A DNA stretch of 64,000 nucleotides, from assembly GCA_034509925.1 (NCBI GenBank), contig CM067537.1:108501-172500 (forward strand). Direction: 5' to 3'. The notes below the pieces were generated by a model. That model was not told the DNA's origin. It searched no databases and saw only the letters and a list, made by a program, of their open reading frames with translations. Below are positions 42,685-53,300 of this stretch, one piece after another (the stretch's first letter is position 1; every line of letters starts with the position of its first letter). A program made the position numbers and the translations under genes. Origin of the DNA: Hirudinaria manillensis. Taxonomy: Eukaryota; Annelida; Clitellata; Hirudinida; Hirudinidae.

Positions 42685-45600
42685 TCAAGAAGCCATTTTC
42701 TCTCGAATGTATTTGCGTATGACACGTCTCTTCTTCAGTATTCGACGTTGGATCGGACTTTTAGAAAATAATGCATTCTTTACTCAAATGTGTAATTCAA
42801 CAATTGTAATATTTAATAAATTATAACAATTATAATATTTAATAAATTATTACAGATGTTTAATAAATATATCATTTTATAAATAATGTTTATTTATGAT
42901 CTCACCGATGCACTCCATTGTATACCGCAACAGCAACCGACGACGTAATGAAACTGAAGATAATCAACAAGACCAGATAATCATAATAATATCTGTATAT
43001 TTCCGAGAATATTCCTCCTAATAAAATGTATTTCATAGCAAATGTTAGAATTTTGAAATAAAAATAAAATTTGATAAAATATTAGAGATATTCGATTCCG
43101 AATGTAATCGGAAAACAACGTAACATCGTTAAAAACACTATGAAAGCTAAAAATTAATAAACTCTTCAAAGTAACAATTGCTACCGTAGCACTCTCCGCT
43201 GGACAACGAAACATATCCAGGATGACAAATACAAGAGAAGGATCCATTGAAGTTCATGCAAGTTGAAGAATAATCGTCGCATGGATTAAAGATACACTCG
43301 TCAAAATCTGCAAAGTAAAGTAGAATCTCAAATTCCATCAACACTTAAGTGGTCGGCCTCAGTTTAAACCTACTACAGCAACGTTTATCATACAAGCTTT
43401 ACCGTTTAAAAAATGTTTGTGGATTTATTTTTTTTATAATATTCGCACGTCCAAAGAACGTAAATCGATGAAACCAAATATGAAATTGCGCCGCGTGCTA
43501 ATCTTTGAAGTCCTTTTTAACATATCGCGGTTTTAATAAAATTTTTTTTTGCTTGCCAGCGATTACCCTGGCGATGGAAAACCAGCTTCGTTTCCGAAAG
43601 AAAGGCAACGGTTTAGTACCTCGTTCGAGACAGTAGTCACCGAAGAAGTCCGGATTGCAGTGTCCATCGCAGAGTCTGTTCACGTCGTGGGTGCCGGCGC
43701 ATTGAAAGATTTCCGAGCAAGAAGAATAAATGAAGAATTCTTTGTTGTGGTAACAACCTAAGTGCAGAGATGCCCGAATAAGAGACGTGATTTGCTCAAC
43801 ATTTGCTCAAAAAGTAGAGACCTGCGTAAACGGATGCGTAGTCTGAACCGCAGATTTCTTCTGGATTTCCGATGCAATTTTGTCCGCATTCTATGGCAGA
43901 AAACACTCGGATTTCGCTGACATTTTCACCACACAAGCAGAGATTATTGTTTTCACGATCATTAAGTCTCTGCAATGATATTTCACAATCGCATTTCATT
44001 TCCGATGTTGTGCCAGTATTTTTGACAGAAAACTTGCCCCCACAAATACGTGGAAAGACTTGGAACATTCGTTTAAGCAAACACCAGCAGACATTTCACT
44101 CGTTGCGACACCTATGGCCGAGTAATTGGTTATGGATTTCGAACATCCTACGTATAATGGCAGAGGAACTTTCACTGTTTGATAAAGCAAGGTTACAATA
44201 AATCATTGTAAATCAGTCATAAAACATTTCTAAAAATCATTTCAAGGTGAACTCTTGAATCAACAAAACTCATTTTTCATTCCATTCGTGTTTCAATATA
44301 CCTCGTATATATATATATATTATATATTCAACGTGTATATATATATATATATATTATACATTCAACGTAGCCATGGCAACGGCGTTTGACCTGCTCAACT
44401 TAAAGACCATTGGATGGCAAATACTGACTCAAATAGAAGGAATAAAATGTTTTCCCTCCACAGGTCTTAACACCCGTGGAGCACTTCACGTCGCAATTCG
44501 ATGAATTGCTTAGAATATGGTTAGACAATGAGTACACGCATCCGCAATATTTGTTGGCCTGCAAAAATATATTTATTAATTAATTATTTATTTATTTATA
44601 TTTATTTATCTATTTAATTTATATAATTTTATATATATATATATAACATATATATATAATAATATATAATATATATATATATATATATAACATTTCACTC
44701 GCTGCGACACCTCTGGCCGAGTAATTGGTTAGGGTTAGGGTTAGTTTTATGGATATCTGCTGATGCAATTAGAAATAACATGTGTTTATGTGTCTGTTAC
44801 CACGCATGTGTAGGAATAGAGAATAACTTTATAATATAATATAATATAATATAATATAATATAATATAATATAATATAATATAATATAATATAATATAAT
44901 ATAATATAATATAATATAATATAATATAATATAATATAATATAATATAATATAATATAATATAATATAATATAATATAATATAATATAATATAATATAAT
45001 ATAATATAATATAATATAATATAATATAATATAATATAATATAATATAATATAATATTTGACTAAAAATTCAATGAAAAGTCTCAAAAGTTGGAGAAACG
45101 AATGAGACAGAAATGACAAATTATGCTACCTTTATGGCAACGATAGCATAACCTCTATTGAGGCAGGTAATCTGACATTGTTCCCAATCCATTTTGCCCA
45201 CCATATGAGCAGAATTAAAGCAACCGATATAAATTAAAAGCCTTTCTTCTGGCAAACCTGAAATTACCGGCACTTGTTCGCAGTTTTACGATGAAATGCA
45301 GAAGAATCGTAGACTACCAAAAGTATGGACTTCGATCTCGGCTACGTCGAAGCCTTCGTTTTTTAACGATTCGATGTCGATTGTCGAATACAAATTCTTC
45401 GTCAGAGCACAATTCACCCTCATACCCGTCGGAGAATCTGTCGCACGGTCGTGGTATTGCGAGCACAAATCCTTTAAAGAACCTTCCCTTCTATAAACAA
45501 GAAAAAAATCTAATTGGCCTCGATCATTTCCTGAAAAAAAAAAAATTAAAACGTCGATGTACGACATAATTTCTCATCGTATTCAATTTCTCATTCAAAA

Positions 45601-46020
45601 ATCTTCTGCACGAGAAGATGACTCGAATGAAATAGCTTTAAGATCGAATCAACAACAAGGACTCCAACCATTTCCTCCAAAGACCACGACGTAATTTATT
45701 TCGTATTTCGAAACCAAGTGAACTCGAACGGAGGCATTGACAGGACACTTGCCAGTCAAATGCTCGACGTTGAATTTGTCCCCGTCGAATAACGTTTTAG
45801 GTGCCGACGTCTGACTGCAATAATCGCCAGTTTTGTGCAACGCAACGTTTATGCCATCTGATTCGATTAAGTAAAGCAATTAATTCTGTTAAAAATTCAA
45901 TAATTCTTATAATTTAATCTCCGATTGCATCTTTTTTGACTTTTCTCAAAACTCGAAAATATTACTTAATATGCGGATGAATAACAGACAAATTAGTTTG
46001 CAAAAGCACTTCCCCTGCAT
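42685..46020 (-). CDS. WSC/EGF single-pass receptor A
   Basis: Eleven exons on the minus strand: 46020-45966, 45857-45669, 45530-45318, 45257-45130, 44558-44429, 44174-44050, 43969-43822, 43757-43620, 43307-43185, 43017-42906 and 42757-42685. Every junction keeps phase and the protein is 477 residues. Domain order: signal peptide (1 to about 18), a galactose-binding/discoidin-like domain (about 19-152; INVALHKTGDYC, KTLFDGD, YVVVFGG, GQLDFFLV), two WSC domains (about 153-330), a Cys-rich EGF-like unit (GFFG-type core FFGDYC), a calcium-binding EGF (DFDECIFNPC), a transmembrane helix (about 430-450) and a basic cytoplasmic tail (RRILKKRRVIRKYIREKMAS). WSC domains bind carbohydrate in yeast and animal proteins, so a glycan-sensing or adhesion role is inferred. 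I know no named protein with this order. Confidence 0.82.
44690..44731. repeat. Intronic copy of a 42-base piece of a WSC exon
   Basis: Positions 44690-44731 match 44091-44131, inside the WSC2 exon 44174-44050, with about two mismatches in 42 bases, in the same orientation. The copy sits in an upstream intron, at the edge of an (AT)n tract. Confidence 0.85.
44830..45055. repeat. (TATAA)n pentanucleotide array, about 45 copies
   Basis: A pure ataat/tataa run in the intron of WSC receptor A between the exons ending at 45130 and starting at 44558. Confidence 0.97.
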
Positions 46021-46475
46021 GGTGCAACCGCGACCAACCACGTCGTCAAATTGCAAAAATTTTAAATCGGGATTTCATCAATAATTTCTTAAATGCTTTG
46101 TAAATATCCTCAACAGATCTCGCTATCGAACGAAGTTTGTTTACATGTTTTTTTTTTATGACGTCATGAGGTTGTTGAGTGTTCGTCTTTGTTTCTTTCA
46201 GGCACGTTTAAACCAACGAACGATTCATTTTTACCTTTTGATAATACTTTTAATAACTTCATAAACAACACATTAAGTACCATGCAATCGACCAACACCA
46301 AATAGATGTTTGTTTTATATTAATAACAATTATTAATAATAATAATTTGTACACATCCATCAGGCATTAATAAAATATTTGTATTAAATTTCCAAATTCC
46401 CTCCTTCGATTTTCACGACAGACCGAACCTTTCTGTCCATCCATTTGAACTAACAAACGAGAATGGACTCAATAG

Positions 46476-46477
46476 TA

Positions 46478-46524
<47 letters not shown>

Positions 46525-46557
46525 TATTATCATCATTATTAATATTATTATTATTAA

Positions 46558-46611
<54 letters not shown>

Positions 46612-46713
46612 TATTATTATTATTATCATCATTATTAATAATATTATTATTATTAATGTTATTATTATTATTATTACTATTATTATTATTATTATTAATA
46701 TTATTATTATTAA

Positions 46714-46752
<39 letters not shown>

Positions 46753-46762
46753 TATTATTAGT
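46476..46762. repeat. Imperfect (ATT)n array
   Basis: About 290 bases of ATT with scattered ATC, ACT and AAT interruptions. It lies between the transmembrane exon of receptor B and the leader exon of receptor A. Confidence 0.95.
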
Positions 46763-46796
46763 ATTGTTATCCATAACTTTCAATTGAAACATCAAG

Positions 46797-49691
46797 TTAC
46801 CGAAGAAATACAAGCAGAATGAGCACCAAGAACAAGGGGATGATGACATAAAAAGCCATTTTTAAAAAGCTCAAAATAATGTCAAATTCAACGACAAATG
46901 CTCCCTCTGGTGAAAATATTTTAAAATTTCTAATTAAACATCATTATCATGTATCATTAATAAATTATTAATTAATCAACTTTTATTTTAAAAGATAATT
47001 AGGTCAACGAGATGAATGTACAAATATGAACCTAAACATTTGCCATCATCTCTTGTTTTCCAAAACCCTGCCTTGCAATCGCAGGCAAAGGATCCAATGA
47101 TATTTCTGCAGATCGATGACCTGATATCGCAGGCCTCGAATTCACATTCGTTAATATCTGAATAATTTATAGATTTATAATATTTATAGATATTTCAATA
47201 ATAAATTTACATGGAATGGTTAATTAGCGTCATCGGGTAATGGCAATGGTTGCGTACACACACACACACACACACAACTGTACGGAATCATTCGCAAAAG
47301 GACACTTTTGCTACCTTCTCCGATGCATTGATCGCCAAAGAAGCCAGTTTCGCAAGGACCACCGCAGGCTCCGTGCATGTCGTAGGACGGGCAGTGGAAC
47401 AACTCGGAACACTTCACAAAGCTCTGCAGTCCATCGAGTTGCAAGCAAGCTGGTTAATAATAAAAAATGGCTCGGGAATGAACGAAGCAAGTGATGTTAT
47501 TTAAGAAATAAAACGAATGATTTCATCGGGCTTTTATCTACTCGAATAAACCGAAGCGTGTTCTTTTCCTCCGCACGTTTGGCTCTGATTCCCCGAGCAC
47601 GTGGAGTTACAATTTAGGACGTCGACGAGAGAAAAATCATCGATGTTTTGTTCGCACATGCAAAAATCTGCATCCTTCGTTTAAAAGAAATTTAAATTCA
47701 CTTCCAAATTATTTTTGGATGTTGCGAGAAAATGTTTCTGGAAATCCCCAAGAACTAACTTGCCTCTAGAAGGGCAATCGGAAAAGAGTCGCATTGGTGC
47801 AAACACTTTTCTACAGTCATGTTCGTCTCGAGCTCTGCATTGTTTGTGTATCCAAAATAGGTCTTCACGCAGCCCTTGTAATATGGCAATGGAATTTTTA
47901 CTGCAAGTAAATGAACAAAATACACGTTGCACAACAATACAAACGAAGTACACATTATAACCATCAAGTCAGTCCTGACTTACGAAGGTAACCGACGTGG
48001 CTTTCTTTGCAAAGTCTGCCATCGCATCTCGCGAAACAATCGCGAGTGGAAACCTTGCTCTCCGAATACATAACTGAGTTCGTGATGCAACCACAGTATC
48101 TGCCATCCTTGAAATTAATAACGATTTCGGAGTAAATGATAAGAATTGAGTAATTTTTTAAAATTAACAATAAATTTATTTTGACGAATGTTTTTATAAC
48201 AAAGTTGTTTTGCATCAAAATGATTTAATGTTTTCCATTTTTCAGTCCCTCTTGCTGTGATAGCTTAAAGGATGTTTAACTTACAAGCTGCAAAGTAAAG
48301 GAGTGAGATCACATAAAATATACCTTACGTAGAATATACTAACTATTTAAGATATATCTTACAAAAATAATAATAATTAAATTTCATAATTATATGAATA
48401 GAATAACATGCTAATATTATAATTAATGCAGATGTTCCAAACCAATTCCGAGTTGGAAAATAACATTCATCCGTTCTAAGCCATTCGTCCAGAATATAAT
48501 AATAATATATTAATAAAATAATAATAATTATTATTATAATAATAATATATTAATAAAATAATAATAATTATTATTATAATAATAATATATTAATAAAATA
48601 ATTATTATTTTAACGATAGCAATAGTAACAATAGCAATTATAATAACCGTATAGAATAATGCAAAGTAGTAACCTTAATGGTAACAACTGCAGAATTCAT
48701 TTCCAAACAAATGTTTTTGCAACTCCTCAAATCCAATTCACCAAGTTCAAAGACTTTTCCGAAGCAACCGACAAATGGCAACGCATTTCCTTCGATCAGT
48801 CCTAAATCTATGGAAAAGCATAAGCAGAGGAGTATTTCAATCGAAGATTAATAATAATAATAATTCAGGTTATTAAAGTGGCGTATGTCCGGTGGACTTC
48901 AAGGCCACGCACACCTCAAGACGCACGCACGCACACACGCACCCACCCAGCACGTGAACTTCAATTTCTGTAACGTAAAGACCGTCATTCTTGAGAGATT
49001 CGATCAGAACTCTCGAGTACGTCTTTGTTGATATTTTACAATTCACTCTCAGCCCACGATCGGCTTCTTTGGCGTTCACCACACCGGGATATTGCGAGCA
49101 TAAGTCTCCAGCAGAACCATCAAATCTTTGAACGAGAAAGAAATCTAACTGGCCGCGAGCACTCTCTAGAAAAAATAAATAAAGCTTTGACTATTTTTCC
49201 TAACCCACTCATTTCCAATTAAAATATAAAATATATTTAAAAGATTTTAAACGTAAACTGACCTTCTCCACCGTAGACAACAACAAAATGTATTTCGCAA
49301 CCAGAATGCAAATCAATTTCTATATAAGATTTGTCATCGCATTTCCCTGTCATACTTATGACGTCATTCCTGTCACCATCAAAGAGCTTTTCTGAGACTG
49401 GTTCCTTGCCGCAGTAAGTGCCAGTTTTAAGGAAGGCAACATTTATTGCAACCAACTCTGTAAGTTGAATTGTTTTAGATCATCATTTACAAAATCAAGA
49501 AAATATAAAATTATAAAAATTTCCAAACTGGAAATCTCAACATAAGGCTTCATGCTGAGAAGGAATGCAAGAAATGACACGAATAAACTAAAGATTATAA
49601 ATTGAACTCGTTTTGTGAACCGACACTGGCCTGGAAATATTCGTAGAAGGAAAAGTAGAGTCAATGCTTCACTGAGACACATGCCAGACAT
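46797..49691 (-). CDS. WSC/EGF single-pass receptor B, tandem paralogue of A
   Basis: Exons on the minus strand: leader near 49691-49610, about 49443-49263, 49165-48947, 48807-48674, 48107-47984, 47900-47760, 47667-47542, 47449-47315, 47157-47032 and 46906-46797. The domain order equals receptor A: signal peptide (MSGMCLSEALTLLFLLRIFP), galactose-binding-like domain (INVAFLKTGTYC, KLFDGDR, FVVVYGG), WSC, WSC, EGF-like (ETGFFGDQC), calcium-binding EGF (DINECEFEAC) and a transmembrane helix (YVIIPLFLVLILLVFLR). Internal introns match A in position and, except at one WSC2 junction, in phase, so the pair arose by tandem duplication. Unlike A, the frame stops right after the membrane helix (TAA at 46799-46797), although a donor (cg|gtaact) there could lead to a tail exon near 46440. 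The leader-exon junction is not resolved. Confidence 0.8.
48495..48612. repeat. Tandem repeat of about 44 bases, 2-3 copies, intronic
   Basis: Copies built from ataataatatattaataaa and taataataattattattat blocks, in the intron of receptor B after the exon ending at 48674. Confidence 0.85.
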
Positions 49692-50388: not shown

Positions 50389-53300
50389 TTAGAAGTTCGT
50401 CGGTTTGATTGGCATGCACATGTTGTAAAAGCTGTTATCTTTCCAAAATTCTGGTCCTTTCCAGCCACACCAACCCTGCATAAATAATAATAAATCTCGT
50501 GAGCGATTCGATCGCAGACCTACGAACATCGAACGTCGACCTTGTTCTGAATGACTCCGACGTCCTCCGGTCCGACGTAATGAGGATCGAGGACGAGATA
50601 AAACACGTCGCCGGTCTCTTCGTTGAAGTCGATTCCAAGTATGGTGTGTGCCAATGCACCTCCGCCTGTTTGCAAACGACGGTTCAATAATTTAAAACTT
50701 TGAGAACCAAATAAAACAAACGACGAAACGCGACAAACGACTTCCCCGGACGTCGATTCACGACTCACCTATCATGATCGGAGTTCCCTGCTTGTCAAAA
50801 TGGTGTGCAATCTCCCTCACCTTTGACATCATCTCACTACCTCTGCTCACGTGGATGATCTTCGATTGGACCTGCAATTGCCACGAATTATCGATTCATC
50901 GTCGCCATGGTCGTGACGTCACGAGAAAGTAACCGACGTTGTACAAGCGGTCGAGAACGTAGGAAACCTCCGTCGAACCGATCCACTGCCTGGAATTGAT
51001 GAAGGAGGGGGGTTTATCCCCGACGTCCACCAGAGCCTGCGAAGCACACGAAGATCAGAATTCGGCGCGAATATTTCTCGTCGACGTCGTTCCACGAACC
51101 TGCTGAATTTCCAGGTGAGAAGGAGGCGACCTGCAGGCGAAACTCTGCATTTGAAGCCAAGATGCGATCGTCTGCAGGGAGCGATAGGCGCAACCCCATC
51201 CGTCGTCGTCGATTCCGTCCTGCATGTAGTGACGGTACTCGTAACTTCCCTTCACCAGACTCACTTTCCCGCGGGCTAAGGAAAGGAAATCGTGCGAGGC
51301 ACGGCGACTCGTTAATTCGTAGAATTTTAATTCGTAATCGGTTGTAAATAATACTAATTAAACATTAAAACGTGCAAGAACTATAATCTCTTGCCTTTGG
51401 ACTCGGACAACCCCAGGTGGACGTCGATGGGACGGGGGTCGGTTTCGACCCCGAGGAACCGAAGGGCGTTCGACCTTTTGAAGGTCGGGCAGGTCAGAGG
51501 CACGAGGAACTTCAGGTGCAAATCCCTGCGGACGGAAGCTGCCGGGAAGCGGTCGTTCGTTACACAACGAATTAGTCAATTATTATTCGCAGAAATAATT
51601 TGAGTAATTTCAACTTCGAGGACCTATTAGGATACTTAAAATTGTGTAAATACGATACGATACTTTAGGATGCACGGCATCATAAAATACGACGTAATGC
51701 AATCACGAATCATAAATGCCATGTTGTTGGGTGTTGTTATCGAACTGCATTTTTGACTCACACAATTAATACCACGAGTCGGTATTTATTTATTTATTTA
51801 TTATATTATTTATTCATTTATTATATTATTTATTTTATTATATTATTTATATAGTTATTGCATTGCAAACTCGACAAAATCTAAAAGACATCTCGTGACG
51901 TCACGAACCCAACTCGTCTTCTTCGGCGTCCTCGGGGTAGATGCAGGTGATGAACGTACAGGTGTCGGGAACCATGAAGTGATGGGGTTTTGGGATGGAA
52001 TAACTTGAATCCTGTTTAGTAAATGCACTCGATGAATATTCATTTCTTTTATAAAACTACGTTTTAAATTGTTTTTAATTTATAAAGTCCTTTTTTGCCC
52101 GTTTTTATCGGTCGTTCGACGAATTCACCTTTGCGGATCTGCCGATGAAATCGGAAAAAACTCGAAGTTGTCTCTTTATGGCCTCCGAGAAAACGTCTTC
52201 GCTTTCGTCTACGGTTTTCTCTCCGAGGTCGAGAATTAGAAGCAAGTCGAGGGGGAGGTCGAAGGTCACGAGATCGTATGTCACTAAAACAGATCGTTAA
52301 AACTATTAAATTAGGTGGAAACGTTTATGCGGCCGTCACGTGCCGTGGACATTTTGTACAAAATTGAAAATTAAAAAAGTTATTTTCATCTAAAGAAGCA
52401 TCTAAACGTCTCATGATTTCCATTCCCGAATTAAACTTCATTTTCGTTCCAACCGACCATGGTCGTGATGAAGGACGGGCACGCAACTCAGAAACCCCGC
52501 CCTGTCTCCGAGTCCCGCCCTGCCTCCGACGGACGTCTTCGTGAAAATTTCGACGTTCAAAACTTCCTGTCGGAACGAAAACGACTCGAATTTAAACGAT
52601 TAAAATGTAAATTCATCTTTCGAACGATTAGTTTTAGTATTTAGTAACAATTGGTTTTAGTATTAAAATTAGTAACTTCTGTCACGTTTCGTTCCAACTC
52701 TTCGAAACGGAAATCAAAGACCGTTTCGGGAACAACGTTCCGCAAAATAACTTTTCGTCGAAACTCAACTGACGAGCAACGGAAGGCGCATCCGACTTCC
52801 TCCGCTCTTCTCTCGTTCGACGGACGAACCTCGGAAGCGACTTCGAATCTCGTCGACCTTCGACCCGTCCGCGCCCTGCAAGAAGAGAGGTTTCGTGCCG
52901 ACGGATTTTTGCGTCACTTTGAAGCAGACGACGGAACTTCCGATCTGCAAGGCCAGTGCAGACATGGACGTCTCGAGACTCAACTTTCTGTCGGCTGACG
53001 AGGGTTAATAAAAGAGTTGCAGATTAAATAAAATAATAATAGAGAAATAAATAATAAATAATGGAGAAATAAATAATAAATAATAGAGAAATAAATAATA
53101 AATAATAGAGAAATAAATAATAAATAATAGAGAAATAAATAATAAATAATATAGAAATAAATAATAAATAATAGAGAAATAAATAATAAATAATAGAGAA
53201 ATAAATAATAGAGAAATAAATAATAAATAATAGAGAAATAAATAATAAATAATAGAGAAATAAATAATAAATAATAGAGAAATAAATAATAAATAATAGA

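Follow-up and report, generated by a model that had tools for sequence, protein, structure and literature searches.

A putative F-type-lectin-like head joined to two WSC domains in a large, clustered family of predicted leech surface receptors

Introduction

Polycystin-1 family proteins carry a WSC domain on a surface protein that also bears lectin-like modules. A WSC domain is likewise found in Kremen, a type I membrane protein built from kringle, WSC and CUB domains and a transmembrane segment. F-type lectins (fucolectins), among them MsaFBP32 and Sm-hPAF, have been reported in self/non-self recognition, and mosaic members that combine the lectin module with other domains and with transmembrane segments have been described (PMC5712786). 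In annelids, the glycerotoxin of Glycera is reported to contain calcium-binding EGF, two WSC and CCP domains (PMC5336659). Here we analyse a window, the whole stretch of 64,000 nucleotides from the leech Hirudinaria manillensis (assembly GCA_034509925.1, contig CM067537.1, positions 108,501 to 172,500 of the forward strand), in which a tandem pair of genes, A and B, occupies positions 42,685 to 49,691. Both encode a predicted lectin-like head followed by two WSC domains, two EGF-like modules and a hydrophobic span. A and B are the edge of a large clustered family in the species' own assembly (148.4 Mb in 23 contigs, with C12 the contig of the window), and the best reading of that family, to which we give about an even chance, is that it comprises diversified, tandem-arrayed recognition receptors of an immune type.

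Results

A and B are tandem duplicates with the same domain order. Their spliced models contain the same modules in the same succession, 169 of 431 aligned residues are identical (39%), and the intron phases, in order 1,1,1,0,1,1,1,1,1 in A and 1,1,1,0,1,0,1,1,1 in B, agree at eight of nine introns, the exception being the intron inside the second WSC domain (phase 1 in A, phase 0 in B). In A the first intron depends on the model, its GC donor (phase 1) having been chosen partly for its fit to B; an alternative GT donor at 49608 with an acceptor at 49455 gives phase 0 and also keeps the frame, and with this intron left out the agreement is seven of eight. The original prediction of a tandem pair with nearly identical phases stands, while the length of 477 residues that it gave protein A becomes 456 in the present model.

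Two stretches of each protein match Pfam WSC, with whole-protein scores of 49.3 bits for A and 36.2 bits for B (cut-off 27.8; B was scanned without three residues at the exon 6/7 joint), and the best PDB match of protein A is Kremen (E 1.4e-4, residues 250-366). Two terminal EGF domains had also been proposed. The second is recognised as EGF_CA, above the cut-off of 27 in both A (39.1 bits) and B (33.1 bits); the first, encoded by exon 8, has six cysteines with EGF-like spacing and gave no Pfam match in either protein. The matching exon-8 counterparts in two genes on contig C11 gave weak EGF-type scores below the cut-offs, one of them to EGF_Teneurin at 22.8 bits (cut-off 24.3). At E values up to 0.1 Pfam found no family other than WSC and EGF in A or B, and so no kringle, CUB or CCP, and an NCBIfam search with protein A returned no match.

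The shared EGF and WSC content would suit secreted or gland-specific proteins partly related to glycerotoxin, whose reported domains are those given above (PMC5336659). We regard this as very unlikely. A hydrophobic span follows the EGF modules in A, in B and, by eye, in three of five paralogues followed past the EGFs, two of these three ending in a short serine-containing tail and a stop; nothing could be called by eye beyond the EGFs in the other two. Furthermore, Pfam detects no CCP in A or B, and the portions of PMC5336659 used here mention no head of this kind in glycerotoxin.

The N-terminal module had been predicted to be galactose-binding-like, and the profile comparisons agree. It is supported as a divergent F-type-lectin-like, galactose-binding-like domain because its family profile matches F-type lectins in PDB and because it aligns with modules in the same position of C11 genes, one of which exceeds the Pfam F5/8-C cut-offs. 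Against Pfam, the head alone had no significant match: the module of A reached 13-15 bits for F5_F8_type_C_2 (cut-off 27.8), and of 19 modules scanned singly one matched this family (E 0.042), no family doing better than Tudor-knot, which came up at E 0.034, again in one of the 19. As a profile of 19 paralogues searched against PDB, the head found Sm-hPAF as its best match (E 3.7e-4, positions 5-136), and fucolectin-related proteins were matched as well. A gene on C11 near 2.65 Mb (L008) reads by eye as a head in two exons, WSC, WSC, an EGF-like module, EGFs and a hydrophobic span; its WSC pair scores 107 bits and its head lies above the cut-offs of both Pfam F5_F8_type_C_2 (36.8, cut-off 27.8) and F5_F8_type_C (30.6, cut-off 28.2). 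The head of a second C11 gene, L052, matches the fish F-type lectin FBP32 (1.8e-9) and Sm-hPAF (5.5e-9). When four aligned C11 heads were compared with the window-type profile by hhalign, the probability was 96% and the E value 3e-9 over 130 columns, and in both groups the module is split over two exons. With the window-type profile itself split by exon, exon 2 gave 7.7e-6 with L051, 1.8e-4 with L052 and only about 0.05 with L008 and L050.

Searches of the assembly with two head queries returned 101 and 103 exon matches (the best 150 of 181 and 150 of 171 candidates were scored), which merge into 127 exons. Taking as a locus at most two exons on the same strand within 1.3 kb, these make at least 78 loci including A and B, 49 of them with both head exons. 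The 78 loci are spread over five contigs, with 69 on C12, and 62 of these 69 lie at 0.53-1.67 Mb in runs of one orientation. An exon scan of 41 stretches (A and B included, some near-identical) found one or more WSC exons downstream of the head exons on the same strand in all 41, and because this order is kept throughout, the association of head and WSC is not due to chance. An exon of the second WSC domain follows the head in 35 of the 41, several of which end early; exon 4 was undetected in seven, while 16 showed exon 8 and 10 showed exon 9, many of the stretches being too short to reach these two, and one chance match fell out of order in an intron of B. In a tree of 43 heads, A and B group with two other C12 genes at 0.25-0.30 Mb (support 90/86), both of them long branches for which the tool gave a warning.

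Not every WSC receptor carries the head. Among six stretches upstream of WSC matches outside the C12 arrays, it was present only on C4 (L057), and none was found within 3-4 kb on C11 at 3.3-3.6 Mb (L054, L055), on C2 at 4.2 Mb (L056, L058) or on C7 (L059). The C11 region holds another extensive WSC gene array (~3.33-3.62 Mb; L004, L005, L054, L055), in which, by eye, L004 and L005 have the order WSC-WSC-EGFs. Also by eye, a WSC exon is followed in L001 and L002 by an exon resembling a C-type lectin domain and in L003 by one resembling xylosyltransferase.

Close copies differ unequally from module to module. Twelve pairs were hand-picked from 33 close pairs, and L024-L073 was later dropped because its tree path overlaps that of L034-L035, leaving 11; the counts excluded gapped codons and any exon or intron that differed by more than 25%, as did exons 6 and 7 in L015-L016. 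Divergence of head and WSC was unequal (p<0.01) in eight of the twelve pairs, four in each direction, and in seven of the eleven. Thus the heads of L015-L016 differ at 3 of 408 bases against 21 of 255 in the WSC domains, and those of L067-L068 at 39 of 408 against 8 of 486. Such a pattern would fit conversion or recombination between modules, possibly with a share from selection acting on individual exons.

Clustered, unequally diverging genes would serve gamete or self recognition as well as an immune role, with receptors on eggs, sperm or epithelia diversified for fertilisation or allorecognition. About 78 loci on five contigs is, however, more than is known to us for gamete-recognition loci, and we think this alternative unlikely, even with fertilisation among the roles given for the F-type lectin family (PMC5712786).

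Over the 11 pairs, the ratio of nonsynonymous (pN) to synonymous (pS) divergence was 0.66 in the head, 0.85 in WSC and 0.16 in EGF. The pN values of head (0.039) and WSC (0.037) could not be distinguished from the intron divergence of 0.036 (p 0.4 and 0.71), which shows fast change in both modules, near the intron rate. As a separate observation, picked post hoc, L060 and L061 differ in exon 7 at 14 of 123 bases, with 13 of the changes nonsynonymous and 1 synonymous, and in the introns on either side at 5 of 197 (p 0.0024).

The features of the two genes are listed in Table 1. An intron of B contains a long TATAA-type simple repeat (window ~44830-45056). By eye, exons similar to those of UFSP2, the UFM1 protease, lie just upstream of A on the minus strand at window positions 50400-51500.

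Table 1. Features of the tandem pair, in window coordinates.
Feature	Position	Strand	Description	Basis
Gene A	49691..46797	-	10 exons, 456 aa; all introns GT-AG apart from the first (GC donor)	spliced model
A exon 1	49631..49691	-	hydrophobic, signal-like; boundary tentative	spliced model
A exons 2-3	49457-49263, 49165-48947	-	divergent F-type-lectin/F5-8C-like module	PDB profile match; hhalign to C11 modules
A exons 4-5	48807-48674, 48107-47984	-	WSC 1	Pfam, two WSC stretches in A
A exons 6-7	47900-47760, 47667-47542	-	WSC 2, best WSC stretch	Pfam WSC, residues 252-325
A exon 8	47315..47449	-	six-cysteine EGF-like module	no Pfam match
A exon 9	47032..47157	-	EGF_CA	Pfam 39.1 bits, cut-off 27
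A exon 10	46797..46906	-	hydrophobic span read as transmembrane, tail of ~1 residue, stop	by eye
Gene B	46283..42902	-	10 exons, 452 aa; first exon (46283-46235) tentative	
B exons 2-3	45857-45669, 45530-45318	-	lectin-like module	47% and 57% identity to A exons 2 and 3
B exons 4-5	45257-45130, 44558-44429	-	WSC 1	Pfam WSC, two stretches in B
B exons 6-7	44174-44050, 43969-43822	-	WSC 2; joint in phase 0 (phase 1 in A)	
B exon 8	43620..43757	-	six-cysteine EGF-like module	no Pfam match
B exon 9	43185..43307	-	EGF_CA	Pfam 33.1 bits, cut-off 27
B exon 10	42902..43017	-	hydrophobic span read as transmembrane, short tail, stop	by eye

Elsewhere in the assembly, contig C23 (15,581 bases) carries cox1 and by eye reads best with genetic code 5, the order after cox1 being, again by eye, Asn, cox2, Asp, atp8, Gly, Tyr and cox3. 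The separation of atp8 from atp6 in such a setting is an annelid arrangement, which makes an annelid the likely source and agrees with the spiralian origin assumed in the original prediction. ARAGORN found no tRNA on C23, so that the tRNA calls are by eye only. A stretch of C9 (C9:3024946-3029286, L039) matches C23:1-2871 (L040) over at least 2,871 bases at 99.7% identity with 8 mismatches, and is either a recent nuclear copy of mitochondrial DNA or a misjoin.

Discussion

The model that we favour takes A and B to be type I surface receptors from a large, tandem-arrayed and fast-diversifying family. The ligand-binding end would be formed by the divergent F-type-lectin-like head and the two WSC domains, with the EGF-like domains as a stalk, a single membrane span and a short tail that has no recognised catalytic domain. 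The heads may recognise glycans or glycoproteins, most likely those of microbes or parasites, and signalling or adhesion would then pass through a partner protein. Tandem duplication would supply new copies, whose binding modules would diversify singly through ectopic conversion or recombination combined with fast amino-acid change, conversion being the presumed cause of the unequal divergence between modules.

Several observations weigh against this model. The first group concerns the ligand. Fucose binding by F-type lectins is associated with the motif HX24RXDX4(R/K) (PMC5712786). In its strict form this pattern occurs in none of 41 window-type modules, and in a relaxed form in three (B, L013 and L067); the strict pattern misses Sm-hPAF itself and the relaxed one finds it, so that the weight falls on the relaxed count and on the PDB alignment. 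The arginine that completes the relaxed match follows an LDFF segment, out of register, in B and L013, and lies near the expected place in L067. In the PDB profile alignment the family consensus has no basic residue at any of the three Sm-hPAF basic positions. The C11 modules give 0 of 4 by the strict and 1 of 4 by the relaxed pattern. The cation motif of F-type lectins (small hydrophobic residues, DG, then N, D or S) is kept to differing extents in window-type modules, with DG in 34 of 41, DG[NDS] in 13 of 41 and [VAI]DG[NDS] in 1 of 41, and is kept in all four C11 modules. Because the fucose-binding motif is not kept, sugar binding is unproven, and the head may not bind sugar at all. The original suggestion that such proteins recognise microbes or self glycans therefore gains a lectin-like fold and loses the fucose motif, and recognition is still conjectural.

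The same direction is taken by features of the loci and of their rates of change. A scored WSC match lies within 3.5 kb downstream in 31 of the 78 loci (the best 150 of 333 WSC candidates were scored), and the 29 loci with one head exon could be gene fragments, pseudogenes or parts of genes that have been split. Three of the 11 pairs, with ten changes in all, supply the EGF ratio; EGF pN is below pS (p 0.0054) and does not differ significantly from the intron divergence of those three (p 0.14). When L069-L070, the pair that diverges most, is removed, head pN rises above the introns (p 0.0071), but pS then exceeds them more (0.059 against 0.027), and because of this selection is not singled out in the heads. 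Positive selection was considered and dropped, given pN/pS below 1 and the tendency of young duplicates to drift.

These rates, together with the short tails, are also what would be expected if the proteins served adhesion or a surface coat, building a glycocalyx or binding the animal's own matrix, with variation that mainly reflects near-neutral turnover among young duplicates: head and WSC pN cannot be told apart from introns, and pN/pS is below 1. The EGF ratio of 0.16 in three pairs suggests that the genes are not simply drifting, albeit on ten changes and with p 0.14 against introns, and we consider such a role improbable. Among recognition functions, a narrower proposal is an undescribed germ-line repertoire of dozens of tandem receptors on EGF stalks, in which F-type-lectin-derived heads free of a fucose site, and WSC domains, would be swapped between neighbours by conversion, continually yielding new receptor combinations for the recognition of microbes or self; this we advance tentatively, as possible but somewhat doubtful.

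An open-access literature search found no description of this architecture or of such an expansion, and no animal family already having it was recognised there, the genome searches covering the species' own assembly, in keeping with the unfamiliar domain order claimed by the original prediction. WSC, F-type-lectin-like and EGF modules are each known, and their combination and expansion appear to be new within the literature searched. To our knowledge, annelids are not known to have a large family of surface recognition receptors that is clustered and changes fast, a point that the search was not aimed at settling. Should the ligands prove microbial or allelic, the recognition-receptor family would offer, within a small genome, a repertoire open to testing, and it would join an F-type-lectin-like fold to WSC domains outside fucose binding.

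Comparison with the described systems places A and B apart from each of them. Unlike polycystin-1, they are proteins of about 450 residues with one span, in which Pfam finds only WSC and EGF families. Glycerotoxin, from an annelid too, shares with them EGF_CA and the pair of WSC domains and differs in having CCP and an extensive C-terminal region in which no domain is known; the part of PMC5336659 consulted mentions no lectin-like head. By profile the head is homologous to F-type lectins, from which it differs in not keeping the fucose motif; the domain partners named in the part of PMC5712786 consulted are CCP, C-type lectin, pentraxin and F5/8-C, and WSC is not among these. Kremen differs from A and B, which by Pfam lack kringle and CUB domains and have instead two WSC domains and a lectin-like head; it resembles them in type I membrane topology and in the phase 0 intron mentioned for the WSC domain of a Kremen (PMC3927609), as in the first WSC domain of both leech genes.

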